Shown here: positions 10,067-30,820 of the stretch, piece by piece
How positions within the stretch are numbered: the first letter of the stretch is position 1
How the letters are laid out: each line of letters begins with the position of its first letter
From: Eubacterium limosum
GTDB taxonomy: Bacteria; Bacillota; Clostridia; Eubacteriales; Eubacteriaceae
Reading direction: 5' to 3'
Length of the DNA: 64,000 bases
NCBI RefSeq assembly: GCF_000807675.2
Contig: NZ_CP019962.1
Span: 62,001 to 126,000, forward strand
Made by a program: the position numbers and the translations under genes
The notes under the pieces: model-generated
The model's input: the letters and a program-made list of their open reading frames with translations, nothing else
What the model was told of the DNA's origin: nothing
Databases searched by the model: none

Positions 10067-10100
10067 TGTTGCTCTTTTGATGTCAATAAAGGTGTATAAT
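10067..10100 (+). promoter_or_regulatory. SAPR-type promoter of the 5'-nucleotidase gene
   Basis: Tandem 11-mers TGTTGCTCTTT (10067-10077) and TGATGTCAATA (10078-10088) are followed by 6 bp and TATAAT (10095-10100). The first matches the region-wide repeat TGTTGTACTTT at nine of eleven positions; the second is degenerate. No -35 box is present at the normal distance. Confidence 0.6.
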
Positions 10101-10148
10101 AAAGACACCAACAAAGGGGAAGCAATCCATAATAAGGGGGATTTTACG

Positions 10149-12059
10149 ATGAAAATCAAACGTATGGCCACAGTTTTTCTGCTTCTGGCTTTCTGCCTGT
10201 TTTGGCTGGCACCCGCCGCGCTGGCGGCCGGAACAGAAAATGGAGATGAGCGGGAGCTCCGGGTGCTCTTTACCCATGACCTCCACTCCTATATCCTGCC
10301 CTACGACGTGGCGGATGGAGCCGATGGCCGCACCACCATGGGCGGCTACGCCCGGCTGGCGACCCTGATTAAGGAAAACCGCACCGACAGCACCGTTGTG
10401 CTGGATGCGGGCGATTTTTCCATGGGCACTTTGTTCAACAGTATTTTTAAAACCCACGCTCCGGATTTATGCTTGATGGGCGAGATGGGCTTTGACGCCA
10501 CCACCATCGGGAACCATGAATTTGACTATGGCGCTGATGGGCTCGCCGCCGCGCTGCGGTCAGCCTCCAGGGCGCAGAACCGGCCGGCCATGCTCAACTC
10601 AAACATGGTCTTTGGCGATGATCCCAAATCAGAGGAGATCAAAGCTGCCTTTGATGCCTATGGCAGCAGCGCCACAAAAATCATTGAGCGCGGCGGCCTG
10701 AAAATCGGGGTCTTTGGCATGCTCAGCCAGGTTGCCCAGGATTACACGGTCAATTATGCCCCTTTGAGCTTTGATGACACCACCGAGACTGCCAAGGCCT
10801 GTGTGGACAGCCTGAAAGCACAGAACGCAGATGTCATTATCTGCCTGTCCCACGGCGGCACCAATCCGGATATTGAAAAGTCTGAAGACCAGCAGCTTGC
10901 AAAAGCTGTGCCGGATATCGACGTCATTGTCAGCGGGCACACGCACACCACGCTGGATACGCCCATTACCGAGGGCCGCACCACCATTGTGGGCTGTGGC
11001 TGGCGCGGCGAGCGGCTGGGGCTTCTGGACCTGAAACTTGAAGCTGACAACACCGTGAAGGTGGACAGCTACCAGCTGATTGAAAACAGCCGGGACGTGA
11101 CCATGGATCCGGACATCGCAGCGTCCATCAACACCTACAAAGATGTTGTTCAGCAGGAATTTTTAACACCGCTCGGCAAGAGCTTTGACGCCACCGCGGC
11201 CGTCTCCGACCACAATTTCGCCACTGTGGATGATCTGCTTGGGCGCTTTGGCAACTCCGACCTCGGCGATATTATCACCGATGCCTACCGCTACGGCGCT
11301 GCCCAGAACGGTGTGGACGCAGATATTTCCCTTGTCAACGCCGGCCTTGTCCGGGATACCATCTATAAAGGAAATCTGAGTGAATCAGGCATCTATAATA
11401 TCCTCTCGCTGGGCTCAGGCTCTGACGGGAGTGTGGGCTATTCGCTGGTGGACTTTTATCTTTACGGCTCAGAACTTAAAACATTGTGCCAGATCGACGT
11501 CTCCATGTATCCCATGATGCAGGAGGTTCAGTTCTCCTTTTCCGGCCTGCGCTACACCTACAATGACAGCCGTCTCCCGCTGGATAAGGTGACAGGGGTG
11601 GAAACCCAAAACCCCGACGGCACCTGGACCCCCTTGGATGAAGACCGGCTGTACCGCGTAACCACCAGCCAGTATCTTGCCAATATGACCGGGCTCATGA
11701 CCAAGATGTCGCATGGTATCATCACGCTGGCGCCCAGGGATAAGGACGGCAATCCAGTCTCAGACACCAACACGCTGATTATTCACACACCAACTGGCGC
11801 AGAGGCCAAGGAGTGGATCGCCCTGTCCGATTACATCCACTCCTTCCCGGTGGGCGAGAGCGGGCTGCGGACCATTCCTGCCAGCTACAACATTGCCCGG
11901 GAGGTCAAGACGCCAGTGGATAACTCATTGGTCACTTTCTTTGGCAATCCCTCCCCCATTGCCCTGGCAGTTTACAGCATCATCGCGGGGCTGATTGTGC
12001 TGATCGTCATCATTATTCTCCTCATACGCCGCCATCACATCAGAAAACACAGAGTCTGA
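10149..12059 (+). CDS. Membrane-anchored 5'-nucleotidase/UshA-family metallophosphatase
   Basis: A 636-residue surface enzyme, expected to remove phosphate from extracellular nucleotides or related phosphoesters. After a signal peptide (1-26) comes the two-metal phosphoesterase domain with FTHDLHSY, DAGDF, IGNHEFDYG, SHGG and SGHTHTT. The C-terminal nucleotidase domain (about 340-560) contains GDIITDAYRYGA and NAGLVRDTIYKG. A final membrane helix (about 602-624) and a basic tail anchor it to the cell; there is no LPxTG motif. The start is ATG 10149 after AAGGGGG; the open frame further upstream has no signal peptide. It has its own promoter and terminator. Confidence 0.92.
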   Translation: MKIKRMATVFLLLAFCLFWLAPAALAAGTENGDERELRVLFTHDLHSYILPYDVADGADGRTTMGGYARLATLIKENRTDSTVVLDAGDFSMGTLFNSIFKTHAPDLCLMGEMGFDATTIGNHEFDYGADGLAAALRSASRAQNRPAMLNSNMVFGDDPKSEEIKAAFDAYGSSATKIIERGGLKIGVFGMLSQVAQDYTVNYAPLSFDDTTETAKACVDSLKAQNADVIICLSHGGTNPDIEKSEDQQLAKAVPDIDVIVSGHTHTTLDTPITEGRTTIVGCGWRGERLGLLDLKLEADNTVKVDSYQLIENSRDVTMDPDIAASINTYKDVVQQEFLTPLGKSFDATAAVSDHNFATVDDLLGRFGNSDLGDIITDAYRYGAAQNGVDADISLVNAGLVRDTIYKGNLSESGIYNILSLGSGSDGSVGYSLVDFYLYGSELKTLCQIDVSMYPMMQEVQFSFSGLRYTYNDSRLPLDKVTGVETQNPDGTWTPLDEDRLYRVTTSQYLANMTGLMTKMSHGIITLAPRDKDGNPVSDTNTLIIHTPTGAEAKEWIALSDYIHSFPVGESGLRTIPASYNIAREVKTPVDNSLVTFFGNPSPIALAVYSIIAGLIVLIVIIILLIRRHHIRKHRV

Positions 12060-12062
12060 CAT

Positions 12063-12101: not shown

Positions 12102-12105
12102 ATTC

Positions 12106-15678: not shown

Positions 15679-17421
15679 TTATAGATTTATTTTTCGCTTA
15701 AAGCCTAATGCCGCAATCCCAGCAATACTCAGTATAAACACTGCGCAGTAAGCGCCTGCTTTCGTATCGACAATACCAGTTTTAACATTTTTGCCGCTTT
15801 TTTTACCAGAATCGGATTTCGAGTCGTCTGATGGTTTTGGGTCATCAGAGGATGTTTTTTTTACATATACGCCCACATCTTTATCATTAGGGTTGATGCA
15901 ATATCCGTCTTTTTGAACCTTAACATTGACCTCTTCATTATTTTTGACGCTAATATCCTTGATTTTGAGCTTGTAAACACCAGACTCCTTATCCTGGATC
16001 AGTTTTACTTTTGCGCCGCCTTTCAGTGTAATATCATCCAGAGTCAGACCCTTAATATCTTGGTCAAAAACCAGAGTCAGCTCGGTGGTTGTTTCTTTTT
16101 CGGATTCTCCGTTGGCTTTCAGATCCTTAAATTGGACTTTTTCGCAGATATGATCTTTATATTCCGACCAGCCCTGGGATGTTTTATAAATCTCAACCGT
16201 ACCAGCTGGCACAAAAATTTTATAGTTTTCCGGCAGGTTTTCAAAAATATATTCATCAATGTCAGGGGGTGTCATTGGTTTCATTGTGATTGACGAAAGA
16301 CGAGTACAACCTTCAAAAGCGGATTCCGCGATCTTTACGACATCTTTTGGAATTTCAATCGATTCCAGGCTGGCGCAATCTTGAAAAACGGACTCATCCA
16401 ATACTGTCACCTTTAGGGGAATATTTATCGTTTCAAGACTAGCACACCCTGCAAAAGTTCCCATTCCAAGACTCATGATATTTTCTGGAATATTAATTGT
16501 TTTCAGACTTATACATTTATAAAATGCTCCTCCAGCGATTTGCGTAGCCGTTTCGGGTAAATTAACGGTCTCCAGACTCAGGCAACCTGCAAAGATTCCT
16601 CCATCAATGAAATTAACACCTTCTGGAATGGTGATTGATTTCAGATTCTTACAGTCTACAAAAGCCCTGTCTTTTATTATCTTTATGCCTTCGGGCAGGA
16701 CGATATTTTCCATAGGACATCCTAAAAACGCCCGTTCTCCTATGTACTCAAGACCTTCAGATAAATAAATCTCTGCCAGACTATTGCAAACAGAAAAAGC
16801 CAGTTTTCCAATTTCCTTTACACTGGATGGAATACTAATCTGCTTCAGGCTAGTACAATAGGCAAAACCTTTAGGCCCAATATTTTCAACAGTATCTGCA
16901 ATCAACACCTCGTTTAGGCTGGTACATCCAAAAAAGGCTTCGTCTTCGATCGCAGTAACACCTTTCATAATTTCCAACGTAATTACAGCTCCTTTTATAT
17001 CGGGAACTTCACTTCTCCACTTGTTGGTGCCTTCATTCGTATACACTGTAAGCTTATGATTTTCAGTATCATATTCGTAATCTTCGTCGGCAATACTTGT
17101 TAGAGCACTCTTTTCTGGTTTCTCAATGGGAAGCGTCAATTCAGCTTCGCCATTTTCATCGGTCCGCATATCCGTCGGAAAAATGGTATTTTCCTGTTTT
17201 AATGACGGTTCACCAATTTCTTGAACATTTGACTGCTCACCTTCTAGTGGCGTGTCTAACTTTTCAGAAACAGGCGCCGTTTCTTCCGGTACTTCCCACA
17301 TCTGCTTTTCTTCTTTCCCATTTTCCTGGGCAGATGCCCCTGCCGGTATTATCGCACACAACAGTAAGAACACCAAAAACATTGACAACAGCCGGGAGAT
17401 TAATCTTTTTTGTTTGACCAT
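15679..17421 (-). CDS. BspA-type leucine-rich repeat surface protein
   Basis: A 580-residue secreted protein. The signal peptide ends AGASA-QE, then a Glu-rich linker reaches to about 115. Residues 150-410 hold about eleven LRR_5 (BspA/Treponema-type) repeats of 23 residues, for example AFEGCTRLSSI, TFAGCASLETI and IPEGVNFIDGGIF. A small beta domain (about 430-525) precedes a Ser/Asp/Lys spacer, NVKTGIV, a membrane helix and a KRK tail. BspA-type proteins bind host or matrix ligands in other species. I chose ATG 17421, eleven bases after AAGGAG; the ATG at 17430 is only two bases from it. Promoter site at 17474-17507. Confidence 0.88.
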   Translation of the reverse strand: MVKQKRLISRLLSMFLVFLLLCAIIPAGASAQENGKEEKQMWEVPEETAPVSEKLDTPLEGEQSNVQEIGEPSLKQENTIFPTDMRTDENGEAELTLPIEKPEKSALTSIADEDYEYDTENHKLTVYTNEGTNKWRSEVPDIKGAVITLEIMKGVTAIEDEAFFGCTSLNEVLIADTVENIGPKGFAYCTSLKQISIPSSVKEIGKLAFSVCNSLAEIYLSEGLEYIGERAFLGCPMENIVLPEGIKIIKDRAFVDCKNLKSITIPEGVNFIDGGIFAGCLSLETVNLPETATQIAGGAFYKCISLKTINIPENIMSLGMGTFAGCASLETINIPLKVTVLDESVFQDCASLESIEIPKDVVKIAESAFEGCTRLSSITMKPMTPPDIDEYIFENLPENYKIFVPAGTVEIYKTSQGWSEYKDHICEKVQFKDLKANGESEKETTTELTLVFDQDIKGLTLDDITLKGGAKVKLIQDKESGVYKLKIKDISVKNNEEVNVKVQKDGYCINPNDKDVGVYVKKTSSDDPKPSDDSKSDSGKKSGKNVKTGIVDTKAGAYCAVFILSIAGIAALGFKRKINL

Positions 17422-17473
17422 TTGTTTCATTTCTCCTTGATTTAATGTGATCTCCAATATTTATTTCAAAATT

Positions 17474-17507
17474 AGTATAATATACTGAGTACAACAAAAG
17501 TGCCACA
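17474..17507 (-). promoter_or_regulatory. SAPR-type promoter of the BspA-like gene
   Basis: On the minus strand: TGTGGCACTTT (17507-17497), TGTTGTACTCA (17496-17486), 6 bp, TATACT (17479-17474). Same geometry as the sites at 10.1, 19.0, 21.1, 21.2, 27.5 and 30.8 kb. Confidence 0.75.
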
Positions 17508-17663: not shown

Positions 17664-18512
17664 ATGGTGATCACTATACACATATTAGCAACTGATGATG
17701 AACGGCTAGCTCTAAAAAGCCTCATGAATGCATTGGAACAGGTTTTCCCACAAGCCGAAATTTGTGGTTTTCAAAAATCTCAGGAAGCACTTGATTATGC
17801 CGAAAGACTTTGCTCTGAAAATAAGATATCTCTTGATTTTGCTTTTCTGGATGTAGAAATGCCTGAAATGACTGGTATTGAACTGGCAGCCAAATTAAAA
17901 AAAATCTGTCCGGAGGTTTGTATTTTTTTCGTCACTGGCTTTACCAATTATGCCTACGATGCCTATCGGCTTCACGCCAAGGGTTATATTTTAAAACCTG
18001 TCTCTGCCGAGCTCATAAAGGAAGATCTTGCAAATCTAAAAAAACTTCCTAGCTTTGAAATGCCCATCGATCCGGAGCCGGAAAAGCGTGTTTACATCAG
18101 AACCTTCGGCACCTTTGACATCTTTGTGGATCAAAAGCCGCTGGTCTTTTCCCGGACACGTGCTAAGGAGCTTCTGGCCTATCTGGTGGATCGCAGAGGC
18201 AGCGGCGTTTCTCTCGCAGACATCTGCACGGTTTTATTTGAAGACCAATCCGGAAAGCGAGCCAATAAAAAATATGCTCAAAACTTTATCTCAAGTCTCA
18301 AGCAAGGTCTTGAAAAAGCTGGTGTCAGCAATATTCTGATTAAAAAATGGAACTATCTTGCTCTCGATATCGAGAAGGTCGATTGTGATTATTATCGCTT
18401 TCTGGAGGGCGATATCGCTGCAGTCAACAATTTTTATGGTGAATATATGAGCAACTATACCTGGGCGGAATTTACAGTCGGCTTTCTGAACGATAAAAAA
18501 AGCAATGCTTAA
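17664..18512 (+). CDS. SAPR-family response regulator 1 (receiver plus SARP-like winged helix)
   Basis: A cytoplasmic transcription regulator of up to 282 residues. Residues 1-125 are a CheY-like receiver with acidic pair DDE, phospho-acceptor Asp in AFLDVEMPEM, FVTGF and the Lys of ILKPV. Residues 145-240 are a winged-helix DNA-binding domain with FGTFDIFVDQKPL and TRAKELLAYLVDR, the pattern of SARP/AfsR-type activators, followed by a short BTAD-like segment (VDCDYYRFLEGD). It is about 60 percent alike, by eye, to the regulator at 21236. The start is uncertain: ATG 17664 and GTG 17667 lie inside the best ribosome binding site (AAAGG-TGGTGATC), and the codon matching the paralogue's ATG is ATA at 17676. 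No kinase gene is adjacent. Confidence 0.88.
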   Translation: MVITIHILATDDERLALKSLMNALEQVFPQAEICGFQKSQEALDYAERLCSENKISLDFAFLDVEMPEMTGIELAAKLKKICPEVCIFFVTGFTNYAYDAYRLHAKGYILKPVSAELIKEDLANLKKLPSFEMPIDPEPEKRVYIRTFGTFDIFVDQKPLVFSRTRAKELLAYLVDRRGSGVSLADICTVLFEDQSGKRANKKYAQNFISSLKQGLEKAGVSNILIKKWNYLALDIEKVDCDYYRFLEGDIAAVNNFYGEYMSNYTWAEFTVGFLNDKKSNA

Positions 18513-18608: not shown

Positions 18609-18617
18609 AATCCTCTG

Positions 18618-19001
18618 TCAATCATCAATATCAATATCATATTTAACAATTTCACCGGTCATGGCGTCAATGTCATAATCATAATCTTTTCCATCATATT
18701 TGAAATCTACTTCATAAACATTGCGCCCGTTTTCGGTACCCTGTTCAACTTTTAATCCCCACACACTCGACTCTGCTAATCCGGCGTGCTGCAGCGCAGT
18801 AGCCTTCGCCTGATCTCCAGAGATCGCGGCTGTTCCGCTGCCTGCTGTTGGTGTGGCCGTAGATGTAGAGCTTGGCGCTGCGGTTGCTGTGGGAGCCGCT
18901 GTTGGAGTTGGTGCGGCGTTGCTCGATGGTGAGCCTCCGCAGCCGGATAAAATCATCAGTGACATTCCCAGCATCAATGCAATCATTGTCAGTTTTTTCA
19001 T
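18618..19001 (-). CDS. PepSY-domain lipoprotein
   Basis: A 127-residue lipoprotein. The signal ends in the lipobox LSGC (Cys at about residue 20). A Pro/Thr/Ala spacer follows, then a single PepSY domain from about residue 60 (DQAKATALQHAGL, EVDFKYDGKDYDYDIDAMTG, EIVKYDIDIDD). PepSY domains are thought to inhibit proteases or bind envelope components. The start ATG 19001 follows AGGGAG; an ATG nine codons on the 5' side would overlap it. Its promoter has the tandem 11-bp repeat architecture. Confidence 0.9.
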   Translation of the reverse strand: MKKLTMIALMLGMSLMILSGCGGSPSSNAAPTPTAAPTATAAPSSTSTATPTAGSGTAAISGDQAKATALQHAGLAESSVWGLKVEQGTENGRNVYEVDFKYDGKDYDYDIDAMTGEIVKYDIDIDD

Positions 19002-19029
19002 TTTCTTTGCTCCCTTCATTTTTTTCTTT

Positions 19030-19063
19030 ATTATAACACGCTCAGATCCTCAAATGTTCCTCA
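19030..19063 (-). promoter_or_regulatory. SAPR-type promoter of the PepSY lipoprotein gene
   Basis: Minus strand: TGAGGAACATT (19063-19053), TGAGGATCTGA (19052-19042), 6 bp, TATAAT (19035-19030). The upstream repeat matches TGTGGAACTTT (compare 27464-27474) at nine of eleven positions. Confidence 0.65.
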
Positions 19064-19123: not shown

Positions 19124-20368
19124 CTATTCTTTTCTTTCATATTTTTCAAACTCTTCTACTGGAACCGGCTCGCTAAGCAGATAGCCCTGGATCCAGTCGC
19201 ACCCCAGTTTTTTCAGAATGTTTAGCTGCTCGAAGTTCTCAACGCCTTCAGCAATGCTAATGCTTCCCAGTTCCCGGCAGGTTTCGATAATATGTTGAGC
19301 TACAATACGGCTTTTCCGGTTATAAATCAATGTCAGTACGAGGCTGCGGTCCAGCTTGATAGCATTGTAATCCATCTGGACAAGCATGATAATACTGCTG
19401 TAGCTGGTTCCAAAATCGTCCAAAGAAACGCCAAAACCCATTTCCTTTATGGGCTGCACCATATCGAACAGCTCCATTTCCCCAACACTCTCGGTCACCT
19501 CAATCGTAATATAGCGCTTCGGAAAACTATACCCATTGCTAATTTTCTGCATCTGCACCAACAATTCCTGATCCATTAAAGTTAGTCTTGAAAAATTAAG
19601 GGAAATCGGCAGCGGTTTTCGCTTCTGGCGCTGCCACCGATCCAACAGCCCACAGACCTCCTCAAAAATAAAAAGGTCAATATATTTAATAATTCCCTCC
19701 TGCTCCAACATGGGAATAAATTTTCCAGGCTGAACGACTTCTCCTTCCGGGTTTATATACCGCACCAATGCTTCTGCTCCAACCACTTCCAGCGTTTCAA
19801 CCCTCCCCTTTGGTTGCAGGTACATTTCAAACTTCCGGTTTTCAAGCTCCTCCAACAGCCATTTCAGCATATCGGTATTCCGGCTTTGGACACCAGCAGC
19901 CAACTGCCTGAAATATGCTTGCTTATCCACATATTTTTGTTCACTGGCATGCTGTGTCAACTTCAGAATATCAATATCACAGTCCTCAAAACTGCACCCT
20001 ATAGAGACAATCCCTTTCATTTCTATGGCAAAGGTCTGTCTGGCTGCGCTGACCATTTTTTGAAACGCGTTTCGGTTCTGGTCGATAACCATAGCCAAAA
20101 ATTCATCTCCGCCAATCCTGTATATTCCTGCTTTTTTAAAACATTTCTGTAAAATTCCTGCAATTTTTTTTAATATAATATCGCCATAGTCGTATCCGAA
20201 ATTCCGGTTAATACTTTGAAGTCCATTAATGTCAAGATAGACAAATCCAACAGACTTTGGCATCTTTTTTTCCAATACTTTCAACGTTTTTTGATATTTT
20301 TGCCAGTTATAAAGGCCGGTGAGGGCATCGTGGCTTTCCAGATAGGTCAGTTGATCTTCCAGCGTCAT
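19124..20368 (-). CDS. GGDEF-EAL protein (cyclic di-GMP synthesis and breakdown)
   Basis: A 414-residue cytoplasmic protein without membrane segments or a sensor domain. A GGDEF domain (about 15-150, RIGGDEF intact) is joined to an EAL domain (about 165-410) in which the key residues appear kept: AEALVRY, SLNFS, EVTES, DDFGTSYSS, KLDRSLV, EGVE and the QGY end. Either or both activities could work. The start ATG 20368 is eight bases after GGGAGG. It lies between the two SAPR regulators and downstream, on the same strand, of the promoter at 21056-21089 and the decayed agr genes, so it may be read from that promoter. Confidence 0.92.
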   Translation of the reverse strand: MTLEDQLTYLESHDALTGLYNWQKYQKTLKVLEKKMPKSVGFVYLDINGLQSINRNFGYDYGDIILKKIAGILQKCFKKAGIYRIGGDEFLAMVIDQNRNAFQKMVSAARQTFAIEMKGIVSIGCSFEDCDIDILKLTQHASEQKYVDKQAYFRQLAAGVQSRNTDMLKWLLEELENRKFEMYLQPKGRVETLEVVGAEALVRYINPEGEVVQPGKFIPMLEQEGIIKYIDLFIFEEVCGLLDRWQRQKRKPLPISLNFSRLTLMDQELLVQMQKISNGYSFPKRYITIEVTESVGEMELFDMVQPIKEMGFGVSLDDFGTSYSSIIMLVQMDYNAIKLDRSLVLTLIYNRKSRIVAQHIIETCRELGSISIAEGVENFEQLNILKKLGCDWIQGYLLSEPVPVEEFEKYERKE

Positions 20369-20441
20369 TTCCAGTACCTCCCAGAAAATGTCGATACACA
20401 GCAACCTTTTGCCGCTGCATCTTATATAAAAATGTTCTATG

Positions 20442-21204: not shown

Positions 21205-21235
21205 AATACTATCATATTGATAGAGGGTGAATTTT

Positions 21236-22072
21236 ATGCATGTATTAGCAATTGACGATGAGAAACTAGCACTCGAAAACTTGATTTTTTCTCTAAGGGA
21301 GGCTTTGCCCGATGCCGAAGTTCATGGTTTTATAACGCCTGAGGGCGCACTTGAATTCGCCGGAAATCTGCACGAGGAATCGGACAAACCTTTGGATTTC
21401 GCCTTTCTCGATGTTGTCATGTCAACCCTATCTGGGTTGGAGGTTGCCGTCAGGCTGAAAAAAATATTTCCAGATGTCCGTATTATTTTTGTGACTGGTT
21501 ACTCCGATTATGCCTACGACGCTTATCGGCTTCATGCCAAGGGCTATATACTGAAGCCTGTAAGCAAAGCGCTGATTCAGGAGGAACTCGACCATCTGGA
21601 CCTTCCCCAAAAGGTTAAATGGCCTCTAAAACGAGTACAGGTTCATACTTTTGGCACGTTTGACGTTTTTGTCGATCAAAAACCTCTGAGTTTTTCACGC
21701 AGCCGTGCCAAGGAACTTTTAGCATATCTGGTGGACAGGCAGGGCAATGGGGTTACACTTTCCAACATCTGCGCGGTTCTGTTCGAGGACTCCTCTGGCT
21801 CTACTGGAAATAAAAAACACGCTCAAAATGTTATCTCAAGTCTGAGACGCGCCCTCGAAAGTGTTGGCGCAGAGGATATCCTCATTAAAAAATGGAACTA
21901 TCTGGCATTAGATACCCAAAAAGTGGACTGCGATTATTACCGTTTTCTAAAGGGAGATATTGACGCCATTAACACATTTCATGGGGAATATATGAGTAAC
22001 TACAGCTGGGCAGAGCTTACCACTGCTTTTCTAAACGAGAGGAGCAACCATGAAAAAATCAAACAAAACTAA
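21236..22072 (+). CDS. SAPR-family response regulator 2
   Basis: A 278-residue paralogue of the regulator at 17664 with the same layout: receiver (DDEK, Asp in AFLDVVMSTL, FVTGYSDYAYDAYRLHAKG, LKPV) and SARP-like winged helix (FGTFDVFVDQKPL, RSRAKELLAYLVDRQG, WNYLALDTQKVDCDYYRF). The DNA-recognition part is nearly the same in the two proteins, so they probably bind the same repeats, while the receivers differ more. The start is ATG 21236, six bases after AGAGGGTGA; a GTG at 21227 lies in that site. The promoter carries three of the proposed binding repeats. No histidine kinase is adjacent. Confidence 0.93.
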   Translation: MHVLAIDDEKLALENLIFSLREALPDAEVHGFITPEGALEFAGNLHEESDKPLDFAFLDVVMSTLSGLEVAVRLKKIFPDVRIIFVTGYSDYAYDAYRLHAKGYILKPVSKALIQEELDHLDLPQKVKWPLKRVQVHTFGTFDVFVDQKPLSFSRSRAKELLAYLVDRQGNGVTLSNICAVLFEDSSGSTGNKKHAQNVISSLRRALESVGAEDILIKKWNYLALDTQKVDCDYYRFLKGDIDAINTFHGEYMSNYSWAELTTAFLNERSNHEKIKQN

Positions 22073-22114
22073 AAAATCCCGCAGGAGTCGAAAAACGACG
22101 CCCCGGGATTTTTT
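22071..22114. terminator. Bidirectional terminator
   Basis: AAAAAATCCCG (22071-22081) pairs with CGGGATTTTTT (22104-22114), with an inner GTCG/CGAC stem. It separates regulator 2 from the convergent envelope operon. Confidence 0.85.
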
Positions 22115-22688
22115 AATGAGTGTCTAACTTGTCCTGGCGTATGAACCAATACCATAGGATCATCAAAAGCACAAGCACCAAAAGCGCTCCTGCGGCTAAC
22201 AGGACCGCCCCCTCATCTGCCAGAGCTGCGCCGGTAATCAGCCCTGCCGGCCCTGTGTTGGAATCGGTCAGGCTCAAGACGATCCTTGTCTCAGAACCCG
22301 CATAGCCACCTTCTGCGGCCCGGTACCGGGCGATAAGGGTATAAGTCCCGGCCTTAGCAGGATAAATGCTGTTTTCCGGTTTTAAACCCGTTTTTGCTAC
22401 ACTCTCCTGCACTGCGGCTACCCCCACAAGCCTTTCGGTGCCGCTGTCATCGTCGATCAAGTAAAAATCTACCCGGCCGCTCTCTATCACTGCCAGAGAC
22501 TGAGTGCGGATTTCCGCGTTCAAAAAAAGTGCCTGTCCCAATTCTGCTGTCCCAGGACTTACACTGATCCGGATGGACGTCTCTACCGGGTTATCCATAT
22601 CCGCCGCCCATACAGCAGGAACACCCCATAAGAACATTAATACTGCTAACAATACGGGTATTTTTCTCATAATGTAATGTCTTCTCAT
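22113..22688 (-). CDS. Secreted Ig-like protein with C-terminal anchor
   Basis: A 191-residue exported protein. A hydrophobic signal (about 7-30) ends at VWA-AD. Residues 35-145 are beta-rich and look like a bacterial Ig-like domain with a -YPAKAGTYTLIARYRA- strand, typical of Big_3/Big_5 folds. The end has SNTG, a membrane helix and a short charged tail. The start ATG 22688 follows GAGAGG; the ATG at 22670 would remove six residues. It is the last gene of the envelope operon, 29 bp after the GDPD gene. Its role is unknown, perhaps structural. Confidence 0.75.
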   Translation of the reverse strand: MRRHYIMRKIPVLLAVLMFLWGVPAVWAADMDNPVETSIRISVSPGTAELGQALFLNAEIRTQSLAVIESGRVDFYLIDDDSGTERLVGVAAVQESVAKTGLKPENSIYPAKAGTYTLIARYRAAEGGYAGSETRIVLSLTDSNTGPAGLITGAALADEGAVLLAAGALLVLVLLMILWYWFIRQDKLDTH

Positions 22689-22717
22689 TGGCTTACCTCT
22701 CACAGCCGTTTTTCATT

Positions 22718-24592
22718 TTACAGCCCGAAAATGACCTGCTGTACAGTATTGTTCAGCATTTCCTCCCGGGTAGGGTGGTTTTCATCAGTTACTCTCATAG
22801 CAGTACGCACATCATCGGTGATAATGTTATCCACACCGCAGTCGATCATCCTCTGCATGCTGTCCGCATCATTGACGGTCCAGGCGTGCACATCCTTGTT
22901 TTTTTGATGGACGCGCTCCACCAGAGCTTTATTGATAAAGGTTTCCTCAATGCTGAGGGCATCTACGTTTAAATTTTCTATGTCTCCGTAGGCAATGGGT
23001 GTAATGTATAGGGTCTTGATCTCTGTTGTCATACCCTTTATCTCCTCAAGGATTCCGTAGTTTAAGGATGCCAGATAGCACTGGCTCTCAAATTGGTGTT
23101 GGGTGATGCTGTCCACAGCCTTCTGAGCAAAGCCCTGGTCATAGGGCGTAGGCTTAAGCTCAATGTTCATACGGATTCTGCCCTCGCACACCTCTATGGC
23201 TTCATCCAGGGTCATAAGCCGCTCATCTTTATATTCCGGGGAAAAAAAGCTGCCAATGTCCAGATTTTTGATCTCCTCGTAAGTGGACTGCCAAATATAG
23301 ACATTCCTGCCTGTGGTCCGCTTCAGGTTATTGTCATGGGATACCACCAGCACACCATCTCTGGTTTCAGCCACGTCGATCTCCACATAATCCGCTCCCA
23401 GCTCAATAGCTTTTTCAAGCGCTGCCCGCGAGTTCTCCGGCGTATCGGAGGAATTTCCCCTGTGTCCGCTGACCTGTGCGCCGTGCAGCAAAGTATCAAA
23501 ATCATCGGCATCAAAGGCGGTCACAATGCGTCCTGTTTTAACACTCACAGCGGCCAGTACCATCACCAAAGCCAGTACCATAAGCTGTCGCTTCGTTAAA
23601 AAGGGAAAAGCTGTTTCGGGCACGCTGCACACCAACGCATTTTCTTCTCCCTTTTCTTCTTGGTAGGTTTCATAAAACCGTGATATAAAAGCATAATTCA
23701 TCATAGTTCCCAGACAGGTTTGAATAATGTTAAAGGACGAAACCGAGACAGCCAGAACCCCGATGAGAATCATCAATCCCAGCGACGGACCACCACCGCC
23801 TGCGAGCCGCCCGGTTACTGTGCCAATGACTGTTCCTGAAAACAGGGACAAGGCTCCGAGAAACAATACGATACAGGCAAAGACCAGCAGCAGCAAAAGC
23901 GTCCAGAGTAAAAAACTCCCTGCTGTTCTGAAAAAACACCCTTTTAGAAGGCGGATGCTTTTCCGACAGGCCGGTATAAAATTTTTGCCCTCTACGGCAA
24001 AGACGTTAAACGCGAACAGGGTCAGCGCCATGACCAGCAGCAGGATAACGCCCAGGCCAATGTAGGCCGCGTAAAGAGCAGGGCTTCCTTTGATATACTC
24101 CAAGATGAAGCCTGGCACCGAAAGCTCTGTGATCAGATCAGATGAAATACCAATGTGAAGCACAGGCATAATAAGCACAAAAAACAAAATGACCAGATAG
24201 TTTCTGGGGTTAAAAATGCGGACAGCCTGCCGGAAGCCGGCGGCCACCAAGGGAATCATCTGTACTTTTCGGCGGTTTCTGCTCTCGTGGAAGCACAGAA
24301 CCAGCACCGCGATTTCAAAAAGACAGTAAAAAGCCAGCAACAGCAGCAAAATAAAAACGGACAGAAGTACCAGTGGATTTTTAAGCGCTGCTGCCACACT
24401 GTCTCCCGAAATAACAGGAAAGCCTTCAAAGGCCAGGAGCCTGCGCAGTCCAAAGTTTAGCAGAGGCAGCACCACAAAAGTACCACCTAGTTTATAAACC
24501 AGCTCAAACACCGCCAGTGTCCAAAAATTAAAACGCAGGAGCGCCAGAGTTTCTCTGATAAAGGCGCCCCTGCCAGTCTTCCAGGGTTTCAT
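22718..24592 (-). CDS. Glycerophosphodiester phosphodiesterase with membrane domain
   Basis: A 624-residue integral membrane enzyme. Residues 1-330 hold about seven membrane helices (GPDPase_memb type). The catalytic TIM barrel (about 370-620) has SGHRGNSSDTPENS, DYVEIDVAETRDG, VVSHDNNLKRTTG and IRMNIELKP, giving the His pair and the Glu/Asp metal ligands. Relatives hydrolyse glycerophosphodiesters or help turn over lipoteichoic-acid precursors. The start ATG 24592 is 18 bp after the polysaccharide deacetylase gene, so they are co-transcribed. A stretch at about 24475 resembling the 11-bp repeats is simply coding sequence. Confidence 0.93.
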   Translation of the reverse strand: MKPWKTGRGAFIRETLALLRFNFWTLAVFELVYKLGGTFVVLPLLNFGLRRLLAFEGFPVISGDSVAAALKNPLVLLSVFILLLLLAFYCLFEIAVLVLCFHESRNRRKVQMIPLVAAGFRQAVRIFNPRNYLVILFFVLIMPVLHIGISSDLITELSVPGFILEYIKGSPALYAAYIGLGVILLLVMALTLFAFNVFAVEGKNFIPACRKSIRLLKGCFFRTAGSFLLWTLLLLLVFACIVLFLGALSLFSGTVIGTVTGRLAGGGGPSLGLMILIGVLAVSVSSFNIIQTCLGTMMNYAFISRFYETYQEEKGEENALVCSVPETAFPFLTKRQLMVLALVMVLAAVSVKTGRIVTAFDADDFDTLLHGAQVSGHRGNSSDTPENSRAALEKAIELGADYVEIDVAETRDGVLVVSHDNNLKRTTGRNVYIWQSTYEEIKNLDIGSFFSPEYKDERLMTLDEAIEVCEGRIRMNIELKPTPYDQGFAQKAVDSITQHQFESQCYLASLNYGILEEIKGMTTEIKTLYITPIAYGDIENLNVDALSIEETFINKALVERVHQKNKDVHAWTVNDADSMQRMIDCGVDNIITDDVRTAMRVTDENHPTREEMLNNTVQQVIFGL

Positions 24593-24610
24593 TTTCTTTT
24601 CTCCCTTCTC

Positions 24611-25540
24611 CTACAGTTGTCGTGGCAGTTCCATGTCATACTCCATGGGTAAAAAAGTGTAGCCTTCTTTTAGCAGGGTTTTAAAGGTTTTTTCCAATGC
24701 CTTGCGGGTATTTTCTTTCTGCTCGGCATGGCAAAGCACTGTTGAAACATTGTGTCCATGAACACCATCGATAAAATTCTGTGTCAGCTGATCCACACTC
24801 AGGCTGTTGCTGGTGCCATCTCCGCATACCACGTTCCAGTCCACATAGTTGTAGCCCCGGTTCACGATTCCCTGGGTGCAGGTAGTATTGGCATTTGCAG
24901 AACCACCCGGAAAACGGAACAGGTGGGAGGTGTGCTTGAGGCCGGTCACTTGTTTCTGATAAGCATCCAGTTTTTCCACATCGGCGTAAAAGGCATCTGG
25001 GCTGTTGTAGAGGCTATACTGATGGCTCCATGTGTGGTTGGCCAGCGTATGCCCTTCCTTCACAATGCGCTGGTAGGCTTCCTCCATAACCTTTCCCTCT
25101 CGGCCGTTTGTAAAGAAGGTGGCCTTGATATTGTACTTTTTAAGCAGATCCAGAATCTCCCCGGTGTGTTCGCTGGGACCATCGTCAAAGCTGAAAAAAA
25201 CTACTTTCAGATCCGCAGTGTCATCCGCTGCCAGCTTGGCCTTGACTTCATCCATTTTGGCTCTCAGCTCAGCGTCTACCTTTGGCCCTCCGGCCTTTTT
25301 CTGATCATTTGCGGCCATCTGCAGCACACCGGCCGCGGACGGCGCCTGAAAACCGCTGCTGAGCCCAGCCATTTTATTGGTGAGCTCAGACTGGGCTGCT
25401 GCTGCTTTTTCAGCATTATGTCTTCCGATCACTACAGAAGACACCGCCACACATGCCAGCACTACTGCTGCCAAAACGATAAAAAACCGCGGCTTTAAAT
25501 GGATCCTTCTTTTACTTCTGTAATAACGTCCTTTTCCCAT
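24611..25540 (-). CDS. Polysaccharide deacetylase, membrane-anchored
   Basis: A 309-residue type II membrane protein: a basic start, one helix (about 16-38), an Ala/Lys linker and a NodB-like deacetylase domain from about 100. Motifs are FFSFDDGPSEHTG (catalytic and metal Asp), HTWSHQYS (metal His pair), FRFPGGSAN, a DWN motif and LCHAEQ. It probably removes acetyl groups from peptidoglycan or another envelope glycan, a common route to lysozyme resistance. The start is ATG 25540. It is in the middle of the envelope operon, 53 bp after the lipoprotein gene. Confidence 0.93.
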   Translation of the reverse strand: MGKGRYYRSKRRIHLKPRFFIVLAAVVLACVAVSSVVIGRHNAEKAAAAQSELTNKMAGLSSGFQAPSAAGVLQMAANDQKKAGGPKVDAELRAKMDEVKAKLAADDTADLKVVFFSFDDGPSEHTGEILDLLKKYNIKATFFTNGREGKVMEEAYQRIVKEGHTLANHTWSHQYSLYNSPDAFYADVEKLDAYQKQVTGLKHTSHLFRFPGGSANANTTCTQGIVNRGYNYVDWNVVCGDGTSNSLSVDQLTQNFIDGVHGHNVSTVLCHAEQKENTRKALEKTFKTLLKEGYTFLPMEYDMELPRQL

Positions 25541-25593
25541 CTTATCTGTCCTTTCCTGGCTGTCTTGGCCTCTTATGGCCTCTATCTATTGAT

Positions 25594-26091
25594 CTATTGA
25601 TTATTGACTGCGTCGATCACTGCAGCAAATTCGCTCTTAAAGGTATCCTTATCCAGTCCGATCGCGGACATGGAGTAGGTCATGTCTCCTTTCGTAAAGT
25701 ACGCAATAATAGCCTTATCGTCGGCATTTTCAGCAATATTATAGGTAATATCGTTATAGATTTCCGGGCTGTAGCTCAGCTGTTGATAACCACTGATGTC
25801 ACCCTCGGCATTCTTCTGGCTGCGGACTGTCGCTTCTGCTCCGCCGGTTTTCTGGTATCTCAGATCCACCACCTCATCACCGATAATATACATTTCCTTT
25901 AACTCAAAGCCTGAGTAAGCCGGCAGAATCGCTGGAGAATACCCGACTTTCTTCTCAATCTGATCTATCGTATCATAACGTACCATGGGATTCGGAATTT
26001 CTTCCTTCTTCTGTCCAGTATTTGAGCAGGCGGTAACCAACAGTGCTGCAAATACCAGAACGCTTAAAAATACAACTGCTTTATGTTTCAT
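25594..26091 (-). CDS. Lipoprotein (DUF4367-like)
   Basis: A 165-residue lipoprotein with lipobox VTAC (Cys at about 22). The rest resembles the DUF4367/GerS-like lipid-interacting fold: a TIDQIEKKVGYSPAILPAYS motif with GFELKE, then beta strands ending in an amphipathic helix. The start ATG 26091 has AAAGGAGG in front; an ATG 14 codons upstream overlaps the preceding gene and lacks a signal. It is 13 bp after the Ig-like gene. The function is unknown. Confidence 0.8.
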   Translation of the reverse strand: MKHKAVVFLSVLVFAALLVTACSNTGQKKEEIPNPMVRYDTIDQIEKKVGYSPAILPAYSGFELKEMYIIGDEVVDLRYQKTGGAEATVRSQKNAEGDISGYQQLSYSPEIYNDITYNIAENADDKAIIAYFTKGDMTYSMSAIGLDKDTFKSEFAAVIDAVNNQ

Positions 26092-26104
26092 TTTGCTTCC
26101 TCCT

Positions 26105-27388
26105 TTATAAATACTTTTTTCTGCGCCGGACAATCACCACAATCACAACGGCGGCGATGGCCAGCACGATAATTCCTGCTCCAATACCTACCCAGGTATA
26201 AATGGTCTGAACCGACGGCCCGATGTGCACCGTGGCCTCTGCTGTGCAGGGCTGGTAATCGTCGCTGCCGGTAAAGCTCACCTTTACTGTCTGATCTCCC
26301 TCAGCATGATTGTAGTCAAGTTTAAGCTCATCGTTTTTATACTTGATGGGCTGATTGTTATGGTCCACCAGGCTCAGTTTCAGGCTTTCCAGCACAGCGG
26401 TGTCCAGCTTCGCGCTGTTCTTATCATAGGGCACACTGTGCGGATTCTGAGTGAGCACTACCGCGCAGGGAGCAGCATCAATAATCTTGACATTGGCTGT
26501 GGCCGTGGCGGGCTGGTAACCGCTGTTACCCTGATATTTCACAGTAACGTCCTGTTTTCCCGCTGTGTGGTTATAGCTGAGCTGCAGCTCACTCAGCGTA
26601 AAACTGACATTCTTTTTAGCGCTGTCGGTGATGGTGATCTTGAGTGCATCGGCTATGGCCTTATCCATGCCTGCCTTATCATCGTGATAGGCAACCTTCG
26701 GCGTTTCTCTGGACAGAGTAATGGTAACCTTCTGCGGGTTTTCCACGGCAACCTTCGCCTCGGCCGCCGACGCTGCATACTCGGCATTTCCCTTGTACTT
26801 CACCGTAACCAGCTGTGTGCCTGCATCGCGGTTATAGCTGAGATCCAGCTCGTCTGTACTGTACTTGATATTTTCTCCGTGGCTGTTCACCACCCGCACC
26901 TCCAGCGCTTTGATGATCGCACTGTCCATGCCTGCCTTGTCTGCAAACAACTTGACCGAGGGCACACTTCCCACCAGAAGAACACTCGTGCCCTCCAGAC
27001 TGTTAATCTTGATCATGGCGGTCGCTTCACTTTCGGCATATTTCTCATTTCCTTTATAGGTTACTGTCACTTTTTGATTACCCGGGCTCCGGTTATAGCT
27101 GAGCACGATGTCCTCCCGGCTGCTGTTGATTTTCTGGCTTTTCTCATCCATGACATTGATGGCCAGGCTGTCGTAAACCATTTTGTCCAGTGTTTCCGGG
27201 CTCGCACTGTAATTCACCACCGCACCGGAGGCCTTCAGATTAATATAGGTCGACTGCGGCGGCAGCACACTGGGCATGGGCTCATTGCTCTCGGCAAAAA
27301 CAGGTCCACTCCCCCAGAGCATAAACATTGTAAAAAATACTGCCAGCAGACATTTTAAACCTCGCTGTCTTAAAATTGAGCACTTCAT
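26105..27388 (-). CDS. Surface protein with four Ig-like repeats
   Basis: A 427-residue secreted protein heading the envelope operon. The signal peptide ends VFA-ES. Four repeats of about 85 residues follow (about 45-385), each ending in a strand pair like LSYNRDAGTQLVTVKYKGN and YAASAAEAKV, a bacterial Ig-like (Big_3/MBG-type) fold; repeats 1-2 resemble each other, as do repeats 3-4. The chain ends with a membrane helix and RRRKKYL. No sortase-like TG motif is present here. Such modules usually hold a wall-spanning or adhesive function. Start ATG 27388 follows AGGAGAGG; a SAPR-type promoter lies 64 bp upstream. Confidence 0.85.
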   Translation of the reverse strand: MKCSILRQRGLKCLLAVFFTMFMLWGSGPVFAESNEPMPSVLPPQSTYINLKASGAVVNYSASPETLDKMVYDSLAINVMDEKSQKINSSREDIVLSYNRSPGNQKVTVTYKGNEKYAESEATAMIKINSLEGTSVLLVGSVPSVKLFADKAGMDSAIIKALEVRVVNSHGENIKYSTDELDLSYNRDAGTQLVTVKYKGNAEYAASAAEAKVAVENPQKVTITLSRETPKVAYHDDKAGMDKAIADALKITITDSAKKNVSFTLSELQLSYNHTAGKQDVTVKYQGNSGYQPATATANVKIIDAAPCAVVLTQNPHSVPYDKNSAKLDTAVLESLKLSLVDHNNQPIKYKNDELKLDYNHAEGDQTVKVSFTGSDDYQPCTAEATVHIGPSVQTIYTWVGIGAGIIVLAIAAVVIVVIVRRRKKYL

Positions 27389-27451: not shown

Positions 27452-27485
27452 GATTATACACGATGAAGTTCCACAAAAGATCCCC
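27452..27485 (-). promoter_or_regulatory. SAPR-type promoter of the envelope operon
   Basis: Minus strand: TGGGGATCTTT (27485-27475), TGTGGAACTTC (27474-27464), 6 bp, TATAAT (27457-27452). It would drive the five genes from 27388 down to 22113. Confidence 0.75.
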
Positions 27486-27587
27486 AACCAATGCTCTCGG
27501 AGCCCCTGTCCTTCTAACTTTCTTTCAAATTAATGGTACCTCCTACAGTACCTCAGAATTATAACTCACAAATCCAAATTCATCCAC

Positions 27588-30500
27588 CTATCTTCTTCGG
27601 GCTGACACAGCCGTGAGTGCTGTAAAACCAGCCAGCAGAATCAGGGCTGCTGGTATAGAGGCCTGCTCGGATAGAATCCCCGTATGCGGGCCGTCCCCGC
27701 CAGCCTTTTTCACTGTGATAACCGCACTGGCAGTTTTCCCTCCATCCTCAGTGGCGACGGTAATGGTGGCCTTTCCGGCGGCTACGCCTGTAACCTTACC
27801 CTGACTGTCTACCTCGGCGATTTTAGAATCTGAGGATTTCCAGCTCACCTTTTTATTGGTGGCATTGGCTGGCTCGATGGCAGCTGTCAAAGTCAGGCTC
27901 TTTCCCTGAATCAGCTCTGCGCTGGTCTTATCAAGCCTGACGCCTGTCACATGCACCACTGGCTCGGGTTTATCCGAAACCAGCACTGCTCCGAAGGTTC
28001 GCAGCCTGTTTTGAGCCTCCATCTCTCTGACGATACCGCTATAAGATGCCGCAGTGGTCGCAACCACTGCTTTCTGCCCTTCCGGCTCCGGAAGATACAG
28101 GTACAGGTTAGCAGCCTCATCGGTCACTGCGTCCTTGAGGTTCAGTGTCTTTTCGCCTACCTTGCCCTCCAGACTGCCTGCATTGGCTGCGGTACCCACG
28201 GTCAGTGTGGTCTTATAGGCCCGTACCCCGGCAGTGTCCACTGGTTCGGGCGAAACGGTATTGTGCACTGCGTTCAAGCTGCCGCCATCCACTGTGATGA
28301 CCGGTTCTCCTGCGGCTGCTCTTCCCGCTGCCTTACCAGCTGACGGCAGCGTCTGTCCCTGACCGGTTGCTTCTGCCAGAATGTCATTAGTATTTCCAGA
28401 TACCCATGTGGTACCCCCGCTCACATGGATGCCGCCATTGGCGTACAGTCCGTATACATACTGGTTATTGTCGTTTTCCGCCAGCAGGTGGTGTGCACCG
28501 CCGCTGATGGTAATCTTTCCCTCTGCGCCGACTGCATAGCTGCCGCTTTTCACATCAACACTGCCGCCGCTCAGGGCTATATCACCCTTGCTGCCGATAA
28601 CAAGGGTTTCTGTATCACCCTCGTCTATTCCGGTCACCTTACCGTCGTTGATGTTAATATTGTTTCCGTACAGTCCAAACGCCCCCTTCACATTCACATT
28701 ACCACCGTTGACGGTAACACTGTCATCAGGATTTTGCGATTCGGAAAAAATAGCCGTGCTGGCTGTGCTGTGCGCTGCGATGGTACCGCTGTTAATCACA
28801 ATATTTCGCATACTTACGATGGCTCCATAGAGCTTATCCGGTGACACATCACAGCTCAGGCTTCCGCTGCCGCCAAAGGCCAGTGTGTCGATATCGCCGC
28901 TGTCTGAATAGAAGCTCGCAAATACAGCGGATTCGTTTTCCGAAACAATGCTGTTGTCGCCCCTGGTGATAAGCTCAGTATTATGATTGTTAACCCGGAT
29001 ACCACTTTGTTCAGAATGAATTTTGATATTATCAAGGGTCAATCGGCAGTATTCCGCAGTGTTGTCATCCGGCGGCGTCACATATGTCTTACCGATAACG
29101 ATGGTTTCATCGGTTTCGCTCTTCCCTGCTTTCATGGATGCAGTGCTGTTTCCGGGCGCCAGAATGTAGTGGTTCTTAAAGTAAAAGGGTGTGTGGCCGT
29201 TTTCAGAGGTAACCGCCATTTCCGGAACCGATTCTTCCATTTTGGCTTCATAGCCGTTGCTTCCTTTGATTGCCAGACCATCATAATCCGTTTCGTTTAA
29301 CGTGACACCAAAGGGATTTTGTTCAACCAGTGAAACATAAACGCACAGCTGCCCCTTGTCGTTAGTATTCATATCGCGAATACCATAAGCGCCGTTTTCC
29401 GGCGCTGCCTCATCCTCACCAAAGAAACCGGCGTTGAAAAAGAGGGACACACTGCTGTCCGCCGGCAAACCGTTCATGGTTACCAGCTCTGCCTTGACCT
29501 CGATATCGTCATCCTCGTCAATATAGCTGATGGGTTCTGGTTGGATTTTATTGCTCCCGGTAAAGATGCTGCCGCCCTTCAGATAAACTCGTGTGGGAAC
29601 TGGCTCATCGCCAAAATCGCCGCCGTAAATATCATATTTAGCCCCCTGGGCGTGGACGGTTCCTCCGGCGATGGTCACGTTGTCTTTTTCCTTATCCTTG
29701 GCATATGCCCCGCCGTGAATCCCGACTTGAGAACCTGAGGCCACGACCTGTCCACCGTTGATGGCCAGTGTATTGGTAGCGTCCAGCCCGACATAGCCAT
29801 TTTTAGCTGTTACGCTGCCTCGGTTAATGGTGATGTTTCCAATAACAGAAATTCCTGAAGTCCCATAGGACGCGCCCTTTTCAACCGCGTCGCCGATAAC
29901 CGTACCGCCGTTGATCACACAGGTACCGCCCTTTCCTTCGCCGTCCCCGGTGGAAATACCAGCGCCGGGCGCCTTACCCAAAAGGGTGCCGCCGTTGACC
30001 TCCAGGCCATTATAACAATAAACTGCTCCGGCATAAATCGGTGTATCACCGTTATCTACCTCCGCTGTGAGGCTTCCACCGTTCATTGTCAGCTTTTCCG
30101 CAAAGTGTGCGCTGATGGCGTACACCTCTTCAGCGCCGGCCTGCAGGGCTACAGCCTTTATACTCTGATCATCCACAATGGCATTGGAGGCGTGAATCTG
30201 GCCGCCCTCCATAAAAGTTCCGCCCAGCCCTAAATTTTCAAGGGCAAAGCTGCTGCCTGAGCGCAGCGTAAGTGTACCGTCGCCGTCCACAGTCAGCTTA
30301 GACGCGTTGGTACCGCCGCCCTCATCACCGATGAACAGGGCTGAGGTCTTCTCTGATTTCAGATTGCTGCTCCCTGCCAGCGTGAGGCTGAGGTTACCCT
30401 GCTGCACATATAGGGGCATTCCCTGCTGTCCCTCGCTGTCTGTGGCAATCTGCACACTGTTCAGGGTAAGCGCAAAGTTTCCATCGCCCTTAACCATAAT

Positions 30501-30740
30501 CACATCCGTGGTCACCGGTGTATCCGGCGCCATGCTGACAGTATAGCTGCCTCCCTTAATAAAGCACAATGTGCCTTTCTCGTAGGTATAACCCTCCTGG
30601 CTTCCCTCGACCACAAAGCCTTTTCCGGCCGGGGCGGCAGATGGTTCGGCGGCTTCCTCCGCCTTTGCCATAACACTGCCGCCTGCTGTGAGCAGCAGGA
30701 ATGTGAGAATGGTGGTAAGCAAAATATGAATCCTTCTCAT
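27588..30740 (-). CDS. Large surface protein: beta-helix repeats plus Big_2 domain
   Basis: A 1050-residue exported protein. The signal peptide ends VMA-KA. Two blocks of beta-helix-like repeats (about 40-400 and 530-860) are built from units such as GDGTLTLRSGSSF, TINRGSVTAKNG and ISGGAHHLL, comparable with the carbohydrate-binding-domain repeats of the 13235 protein; a beta domain lies between them. A Big_2 Ig-like domain follows (about 925-1010, IAEVDSQGKVTGVAAGKATI). The end is GDGPHTGIL, a membrane helix and ARRR. It is probably an adhesin or glycan-binding protein; the ligand is unknown. The start ATG 30740 follows GAAGGGAG. No clear terminator is visible in the 100 bp after the stop. 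Confidence 0.85.
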   Translation of the reverse strand: MRRIHILLTTILTFLLLTAGGSVMAKAEEAAEPSAAPAGKGFVVEGSQEGYTYEKGTLCFIKGGSYTVSMAPDTPVTTDVIMVKGDGNFALTLNSVQIATDSEGQQGMPLYVQQGNLSLTLAGSSNLKSEKTSALFIGDEGGGTNASKLTVDGDGTLTLRSGSSFALENLGLGGTFMEGGQIHASNAIVDDQSIKAVALQAGAEEVYAISAHFAEKLTMNGGSLTAEVDNGDTPIYAGAVYCYNGLEVNGGTLLGKAPGAGISTGDGEGKGGTCVINGGTVIGDAVEKGASYGTSGISVIGNITINRGSVTAKNGYVGLDATNTLAINGGQVVASGSQVGIHGGAYAKDKEKDNVTIAGGTVHAQGAKYDIYGGDFGDEPVPTRVYLKGGSIFTGSNKIQPEPISYIDEDDDIEVKAELVTMNGLPADSSVSLFFNAGFFGEDEAAPENGAYGIRDMNTNDKGQLCVYVSLVEQNPFGVTLNETDYDGLAIKGSNGYEAKMEESVPEMAVTSENGHTPFYFKNHYILAPGNSTASMKAGKSETDETIVIGKTYVTPPDDNTAEYCRLTLDNIKIHSEQSGIRVNNHNTELITRGDNSIVSENESAVFASFYSDSGDIDTLAFGGSGSLSCDVSPDKLYGAIVSMRNIVINSGTIAAHSTASTAIFSESQNPDDSVTVNGGNVNVKGAFGLYGNNININDGKVTGIDEGDTETLVIGSKGDIALSGGSVDVKSGSYAVGAEGKITISGGAHHLLAENDNNQYVYGLYANGGIHVSGGTTWVSGNTNDILAEATGQGQTLPSAGKAAGRAAAGEPVITVDGGSLNAVHNTVSPEPVDTAGVRAYKTTLTVGTAANAGSLEGKVGEKTLNLKDAVTDEAANLYLYLPEPEGQKAVVATTAASYSGIVREMEAQNRLRTFGAVLVSDKPEPVVHVTGVRLDKTSAELIQGKSLTLTAAIEPANATNKKVSWKSSDSKIAEVDSQGKVTGVAAGKATITVATEDGGKTASAVITVKKAGGDGPHTGILSEQASIPAALILLAGFTALTAVSARRR

Positions 30741-30786
30741 TTTGATTGCTCCCTTCTTTTTGTATCTTTATATCATTTCTTACCCT

Positions 30787-30820
30787 ATCTTACACCCCAG
30801 AGTACAACAAAAGAACAACA
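30787..30820 (-). promoter_or_regulatory. SAPR-type promoter of the 1050-residue surface protein
   Basis: Minus strand: TGTTGTTCTTT (30820-30810), TGTTGTACTCT (30809-30799), 6 bp, TAAGAT (30792-30787). Confidence 0.75.

Follow-up and report, generated by a model that had tools for sequence, protein, structure and literature searches.

Members of the SAPR family (COG3947) combine, according to the COG title, a receiver (REC), a winged helix (wHTH) and a BTAD domain, and the Pho boxes of PhoB/OmpR-type regulators are 11-bp tandem repeats that replace the -35 element. Judging by their titles, the papers found under the SAPR name deal with E. coli and Deinococcus, and we found no description of operators of such regulators in Firmicutes in the literature searched. 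The afs box consists of two 11-bp repeats that span -40 to -19 over a poor -35, and SARPs in general leave 8 bp between the 3' repeat and the -10 (PMC10936776). Here, we describe promoters of a similar build in a 64,000-nucleotide stretch of the Eubacterium limosum genome (contig NZ_CP019962.1, positions 62,001 to 126,000; hereafter, the window), together with two regulator genes that lie among them. A sequence-only reading of this stretch had proposed a local surface regulon. The sequences point to a real regulon with SARP-like promoter geometry, whose regulator, carrying a SARP-like but truncated domain behind a receiver, is predicted to act like a SARP. Very probably, the promoters are activator-dependent and read by such a receiver-SARP-like response regulator, with the same class and layout recurring across Clostridia. 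Plain coordinates below are those of the window and genome coordinates are given as C1:position; G000 is the source genome.

All seven proposed sites were present. Two 11-mers with the core TGNKGNNCTTT (three at regulator 2) are followed, after exactly 6 bp in each case, by a -10 hexamer of the form TANNNT (TATAAT at four sites; TATACT, TAAAAT and TAAGAT at the others). A good -35 is absent; in our own reading, a 17-bp spacer would make its position coincide with the final six bases of the upstream 11-mer. The promoters had thus been correctly located, except that the envelope operon site, given as 27485-27452, lies one base off (27486-27453), and the fixed gap and poor -35 were borne out at every site. 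By our arithmetic, an afs box with a -10 hexamer at -12 to -7 also leaves 6 bp; the 8-bp and 6-bp figures depend on where the repeat is bounded. The analogy to SARPs therefore survives, as the geometry is that of the afs box and the predicted fold of the DNA-binding domain that of EmbR and AfsR. A regulator bound at such a place could also act as a repressor, occupying promoter DNA and blocking RNA polymerase: the operator overlaps the core promoter and the -10 boxes are near consensus. However, we consider repression very unlikely, since the lack of a usable -35 matches activation and AfsR, with this geometry, activates (PMC10936776).

We scored each site with a leave-one-out matrix against all 22-mers of the window, on both strands. 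Five of the seven were outscored by other sites only, the 5'-nucleotidase site by one non-site place inside a gene, and the PepSY site by four places, one of which adjoins the regulator 2 array. The genome (4.42 Mb) was then searched with the pattern TGNKGNNCTTTTGNKGNNCT-N8-TANNNT, its reversed form serving as control. Up to two mismatches, 21 rows were obtained against 1 in the control, and up to one mismatch, 12 against 0. Because the pattern was derived from the window sites, independent support comes from the rows outside the window. We read the 21 rows as 14 promoter-like ones (13 sites) and 7 others; row 83160 is the regulator 2 array in a shifted register. Not counted as promoters were rows 340998, 4139206, 1638925, 2805384, 3542349 and 3855171, together with 24487-24454, the non-site place mentioned above, which lies within the GDPD coding sequence, is degraded in the related genome G023 and was taken as coincidence. 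Row 340998 is ambiguous, a similar sequence being kept in G023.

An exported or membrane protein is encoded directly behind 10 of the 13 sites and behind 5 of the 6 outside the window (N-termini read by eye); regulator 2, site 4 and C1:2619102 are the other three. The proposed local surface regulon stood as regards surface genes, but it is not only local, with six sites elsewhere, and not limited to the surface, as it takes in a GGDEF gene, the regulator itself and possibly a GGDEF-EAL gene. At position 4, the two half-sites of an operator tend to agree (TGNTG or TGNGG): 6 were TT, 8 GG and 2 mixed T/G (Fisher p 0.009; a hand-made list of 16 of the 18 collapsed sites, leaving out two rows with C). 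Nine of the 13 sites fall in the C1:40-93 kb region, and C1:2619102 and C1:2622206 are a duplicated pair, as might be seen if the motif were a duplicated promoter cassette that spread with surface genes and had no dedicated regulator. We find this hardly credible, since by eye the sequences flanking the window sites show no resemblance to each other, and the same layout, built from other words, is found in other lineages, mostly behind genes for regulators of this class.

Both regulators proposed within the region as winged-helix proteins turned out to consist of a receiver and a SARP-like DNA-binding domain. They are paralogues (63%), with PF00072 E-values of 2.6e-15 and 2.9e-14, and the probable phospho-acceptor D59 of regulator 2 is present in 16 of 17 aligned sequences. 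The DNA-binding domain was modelled alone, the fold matches of the full-length model being filled by receivers, and its best solved folds were those of two SARPs, EmbR and AfsR. Beyond the winged helix, about 50 residues remain before the protein ends. Pfam BTAD was absent from the best 25 of 36 families, the last of which match 1 member each, and is thus matched by at most 1 of 67 members at E<=1; Trans_reg_C gave 17.1 bits for regulator 2 (cut-off 26.2) and 54 of the 67 members match it at E<=1. We did not file the regulators as SARPs because no complete BTA was found; the SAPR (COG3947) label, taken over from the sequence-only reading, presumably applies. The three-copy site at the promoter of regulator 2, kept in two other species (G023 and G025, where two of the copies are well conserved), fits predicted autoregulation. 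No site of its own was found for regulator 1, and either regulator may be the one that binds the repeats. G023 has a third paralogue beside regulators 1 and 2 (L090:3085-3927), with its own site upstream (L090:3961). In three other genomes, the SARP-like domain lies in open frames of 666-681 amino acids (L306, L307 and L308, one with an internal TGA), so that architectures other than receiver plus SARP-like domain may exist.

We compared 40 genomes of the family. Regulator 2 was matched at E<=1e-30 in 9 of them. With up to one mismatch, the pattern was found in G000 (12), G023 (9), G025 (6), and G024, G002 and G018 (1 each), and in none of the other 34; the reversed control gave 2 across all. 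With up to two mismatches, G000 had 21, G023 16 and G025 13 (controls 1, 1 and 2), G024 4 (control 2) and G026 1 (control 0). The sites thus co-occur with regulator 2 within the genus, as had been predicted. The envelope operon, surface protein, regulator 2 and site 4 promoters have orthologous sites in both G023 and G025, and in the alignments their repeats and -10 have changed less than the DNA upstream of them, a difference most evident in G025. Orthologous sites of the PepSY and 5'-nucleotidase promoters were found in G023; no orthologue of the BspA site was identified. Site 7 is identical to the last letter in G023 and G024, and the C1:55937 promoter was uninformative because it is nearly identical throughout in G023. 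Neither did tblastn match an orthologue of the C1:40520 gene at E<=1e-20 in the four stretches of G023, G024 and G025 compared; a site of fair score (L127:1913, in G025) occurs in these stretches.

Regulators 1 and 2 are missing from G024, and so, within the syntenic stretch, are the 5'-nucleotidase, BspA, PepSY, GGDEF-EAL, Big_3 and Big_2 genes. Three sites could be traced there, one deleted, one damaged and one intact. Its copy of the C1:1723620 gene has lost operator and -10, and at its copy of C1:1980748 positions 2 and 4 of the downstream repeat no longer carry the conserved letters but TATAAT stays, which is compatible with activation and repression alike. The intact site (L099:14033-14066) now precedes lipoprotein and deacetylase genes. 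In G025, regulator 2 is present, no regulator 1 was found, and both site sub-types are kept; regulator 1 therefore seems needed for neither, and we rejected the idea that the two regulators serve TGNTG and TGNGG sites separately. Beside other paralogues (L086, L096, L102, L087, L098, L101 and L103), no window-kind sites rose above background. A score-21 place with a poor -10 lies beside a more distant paralogue in L097 (G025:C8), and L086:7832 is an exact 11-bp tandem with no counterpart in the L096 and L102 rows.

We also looked for the layout, irrespective of the word, beyond the genus. A genome-collection scan gave at least 543 relatives; the best 80 (top-scoring, not random) were kept as 79 loci, and 78 (L133-L210) were used, L132 from E. 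callanderi being left out. By record title these are mostly Clostridia, with a few labelled Deltaproteobacteria, Desulfovibrio, Brucepastera, Bacteroides metagenome-assembled genome and the like. We counted 11-base matches to the stretch one period upstream, followed 4-9 bp on by a -10 of at least 5/6. At >=10/11 identity, non-coding DNA gave 32 matches at period 11, and 0, 0, 1, 0, 1, 4, 0, 1, 1, 0 and 2 at periods 7-10 and 12-18; at >=9/11, period 11 gave 59 against 4-11 at other periods. Directly behind the regulator gene (300 bp, same strand), 29 of the 78 loci had 32 period-11 matches in total, against 2, 0, 0, 0 and 0 matches at periods 9, 10, 12, 13 and 14. When DNA-binding domains were merged at 60% identity, 20 of 39 clusters had a site. 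In 400 kb from four control genomes with no regulator 2 match at E<=1e-30 (one of them, G018, with a single weak match to the domain profile, E 2.4e-11), we found 1 match at period 11 against 0-5 at other periods. Thirty LytTR loci gave 1 match in 23 kb of non-coding DNA, compared with 40 in 40 kb within 1.5 kb of SAPR-type genes; the excess falls with distance, to 18 matches in 86 kb further than 1.5 kb away. A further search yielded a set of 13 loci, which may overlap with the first: five period-11 matches were found against 0-2 at other periods, and 3 of the seven loci of ordinary length (L299-L305) had a site no more than 100 bp behind the matched domain.

The operators of 31 loci, chosen by tandem identity and not by the letters compared, with the gap free from 5 to 8 bp, had 51% of letters in common between regulators less than 70% identical when anchored at the 6-bp gap; other registers gave 24-33%. 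Operator likeness rises with that of the DNA-binding domains (r 0.23; 53 of 5000 permutations as high). These data also bear on whether the sites might be operators of some OmpR/PhoB-type response regulator; such regulators, like those of Eubacterium, consist of a receiver and a winged helix. We consider this unlikely: the sites track SAPR-type regulators (19 genomes of one other genus, g2, without a regulator match at E<=1e-30 have 2 site matches in all), and the class-wide enrichment peaks just behind SAPR-type genes, the controls there being LytTR and not OmpR-type loci.

Promoters activated by a receiver-SARP-like regulator thus remain the favoured explanation, but several observations weigh against it. 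In G024, without regulators 1 and 2, the Big_2 promoter survives at 34 of 34 letters, and the upstream repeat of the damaged C1:1980748 site still matches the consensus; in G023, the same site is lost although the regulators are present. The other two paralogue types of the genus (about 47-51% and 35-40% identity) have no window-kind site nearby. The genes scanned around regulators 1 and 2 include no kinase, and the third paralogue of G023 has Ala at the probable phospho-acceptor. At the thresholds used, 49 of the 78 loci had no site behind the gene, a few of these having little DNA there, and the counts are not of independent events, some loci being related. Finally, a relaxed Eubacterium-type pattern occurred in 33 of 148 genomes, hardly more than the 28 reached by its reversed control, and class-wide use of the Eubacterium word found no support; of 14 other genomes with a match to the DNA-binding-domain profile, only G143 had a match to this pattern.

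The repeats, their spacing and conservation, the co-occurrence, the class-wide enrichment and the predicted domain fold all come from sequence; from them we infer binding, activation rather than repression, contact with sigma and control by phosphorylation. The sites would be activator-dependent sigma-70 promoters, and their regulator would be regulator 2, probably also its paralogue regulator 1, a receiver joined to a SARP-like winged helix with a shortened BTA tail. Two protomers would sit side by side, as SARP dimers do, one on each 11-bp repeat, where the -35 would be; in place of the -35, they would anchor RNA polymerase and sigma region 4, while sigma region 2 would read the -10 box, 6 bp further on. 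A kinase acting on the receiver would control the regulator by phosphorylation. The regulon would comprise genes of the cell surface and envelope, one GGDEF gene, regulator 2 itself and perhaps the GGDEF-EAL gene, and the same regulator class and layout would extend across Clostridia with 11-bp words specific to each lineage.

Table 1. Sites, probable targets and regulators (aa, amino acids; ORF, open reading frame).
Feature	Position	Strand	Description
Site 1	10067..10100	+	Two 11-mers, 6 bp, TATAAT; 5'-nucleotidase promoter
Site 1 target	10149..12059	+	Exported 5'-nucleotidase, Metallophos and 5_nucleotid_C, 636 aa
Site 2	17474..17507	-	BspA-like LRR protein promoter
Site 2 target	15679..17457	-	BspA-type LRR_5 surface protein; probable start ATG at 17430 (by eye)
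Site 3	19030..19063	-	PepSY lipoprotein promoter
Site 3 target	18618..19019	-	PepSY lipoprotein; probable start ATG at 19001 (by eye)
Site 4	21056..21089	-	Operator and -10; GGDEF-EAL gene about 650 bp on
Site 4 possible target	19124..20404	-	GGDEF-EAL protein
Site 5	21160..21204	+	Three 11-mers (21160-21192), 6 bp, TAAAAT; regulator 2 promoter
Site 6	27453..27486	-	Envelope operon promoter
Site 6 likely target	22113..27388	-	Operon of five same-strand genes
Site 7	30787..30820	-	Large surface protein promoter
Site 7 target	27588..30740	-	Big_2 surface protein, 1050 aa
Regulator 1	17664..18512	+	Receiver and SARP-like DNA-binding domain
Regulator 2	21227..22072	+	Receiver and SARP-like DNA-binding domain with truncated BTA
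Outside site	C1:40520		Before 1072-aa BspA-type LRR protein
Outside site	C1:55937		Before exported 177-aa protein
Outside site	C1:1723620		Before membrane protein
Outside site	C1:1980748		Before membrane GGDEF protein
Outside site	C1:2622206		Before 1058-aa Big_2/Flg_new protein
Outside site	C1:2619102		Twin of 2622206; no ORF >43 aa in next 350 bp, exported-protein ORF about 400 bp on

The genes of the site 6 operon encode a Big_3 protein, a lipoprotein (by its N-terminus), a polysaccharide deacetylase, a GDPD protein and a small protein with a weak Big_3_5 match. The agr remnant that had been placed under site 4 found no support: the AgrB profile, read through stops, matches only C1:476992 and C1:1862772, both outside the window, and three-frame reading of the site 4 strand gave no open stretch above 74 codons before the GGDEF-EAL gene. 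At Rfam gathering scores, a tRNA was the sole match in the window. By eye (15405-15600 and 12740-12900), part of the 12106-13155 gene seems to recur in degraded form ahead of the 13235-15346 gene. The G023 orthologue of the latter gene has a SARP-like site ahead (L090:12491) and G000 has none; therefore, a duplication may have displaced the promoter. At 996-1025 (+), an 11-bp tandem of another word, TTTTGTCACAA TTTTGCCATAA, is followed by TATAAT; we take it to be Pho-box-like.

Ten target proteins were scanned, seven hand-picked outside the genus (L134, L154, L194, L145, L182, L209 and L136) and three from G000. GGDEF enzymes were found behind one Clostridioides difficile and one Clostridiales regulator; the other outside targets were a clostripain-type peptidase, a solute-binding protein, a Listeria-Bacteroides-repeat protein and two proteins without a Pfam family. 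At seven loci (L134, L135, L137, L154, L159, L180 and L196), the regulator is followed by a period-11 promoter and then by a large membrane protein (by N-terminus), and GGDEF is present in both of those scanned (L134 and L154). Enzymes of cyclic di-GMP (c-di-GMP) turnover and exported proteins thus recur as targets, in the outside loci as at C1:1980748 and near site 4, which points to a repeated association of such regulators with GGDEF enzymes and surface proteins. Divergent back-to-back promoter pairs were also seen at L144:7608-7690 and L167:5131-5253, away from or upstream of the regulator gene. All together, we probably see a SARP-like, phospho-controlled activator class in Clostridia, a class-wide spread that goes beyond the local regulon first proposed. 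We think it likely that there is a Clostridia-wide promoter code, in which each member of a large class of receiver-SARP regulators would read its own 11-bp word, two or three copies of it lying 6 bp from the -10 where a -35 would be, often first at the next gene; through such a code, signals would reach c-di-GMP enzymes and proteins of the cell surface in gut bacteria. Since layout and phase are fixed, the operators and regulons of uncharacterised regulators of gut Clostridia should be readable from sequence and directly testable, and SARP-type activation, known from the control of antibiotics in Streptomyces, would reach a widespread two-component class in Firmicutes.

Compared with the SAPR family, receiver and winged helix are alike, whereas the BTAD goes unrecognised by Pfam in regulator 2. 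EmbR of Mycobacterium tuberculosis has an FHA domain, a full BTA and no receiver, unlike the Eubacterium regulators. SARPs activate antibiotic clusters in actinomycetes; in Eubacterium, surface, envelope and GGDEF genes make up most of the targets, no search for antibiotic clusters having been made. With AfsR and the afs box, the system has in common the 11-bp direct repeats, the distance to the -10 and an OmpR-like domain with the SARP fold. It differs from AfsR of Streptomyces coelicolor in that this domain sits behind a two-component receiver, in that the BTA is cut to about 50 residues, and in the word (TGNKGNNCTTT), the mostly surface, envelope and GGDEF targets, and the host, a Firmicute.

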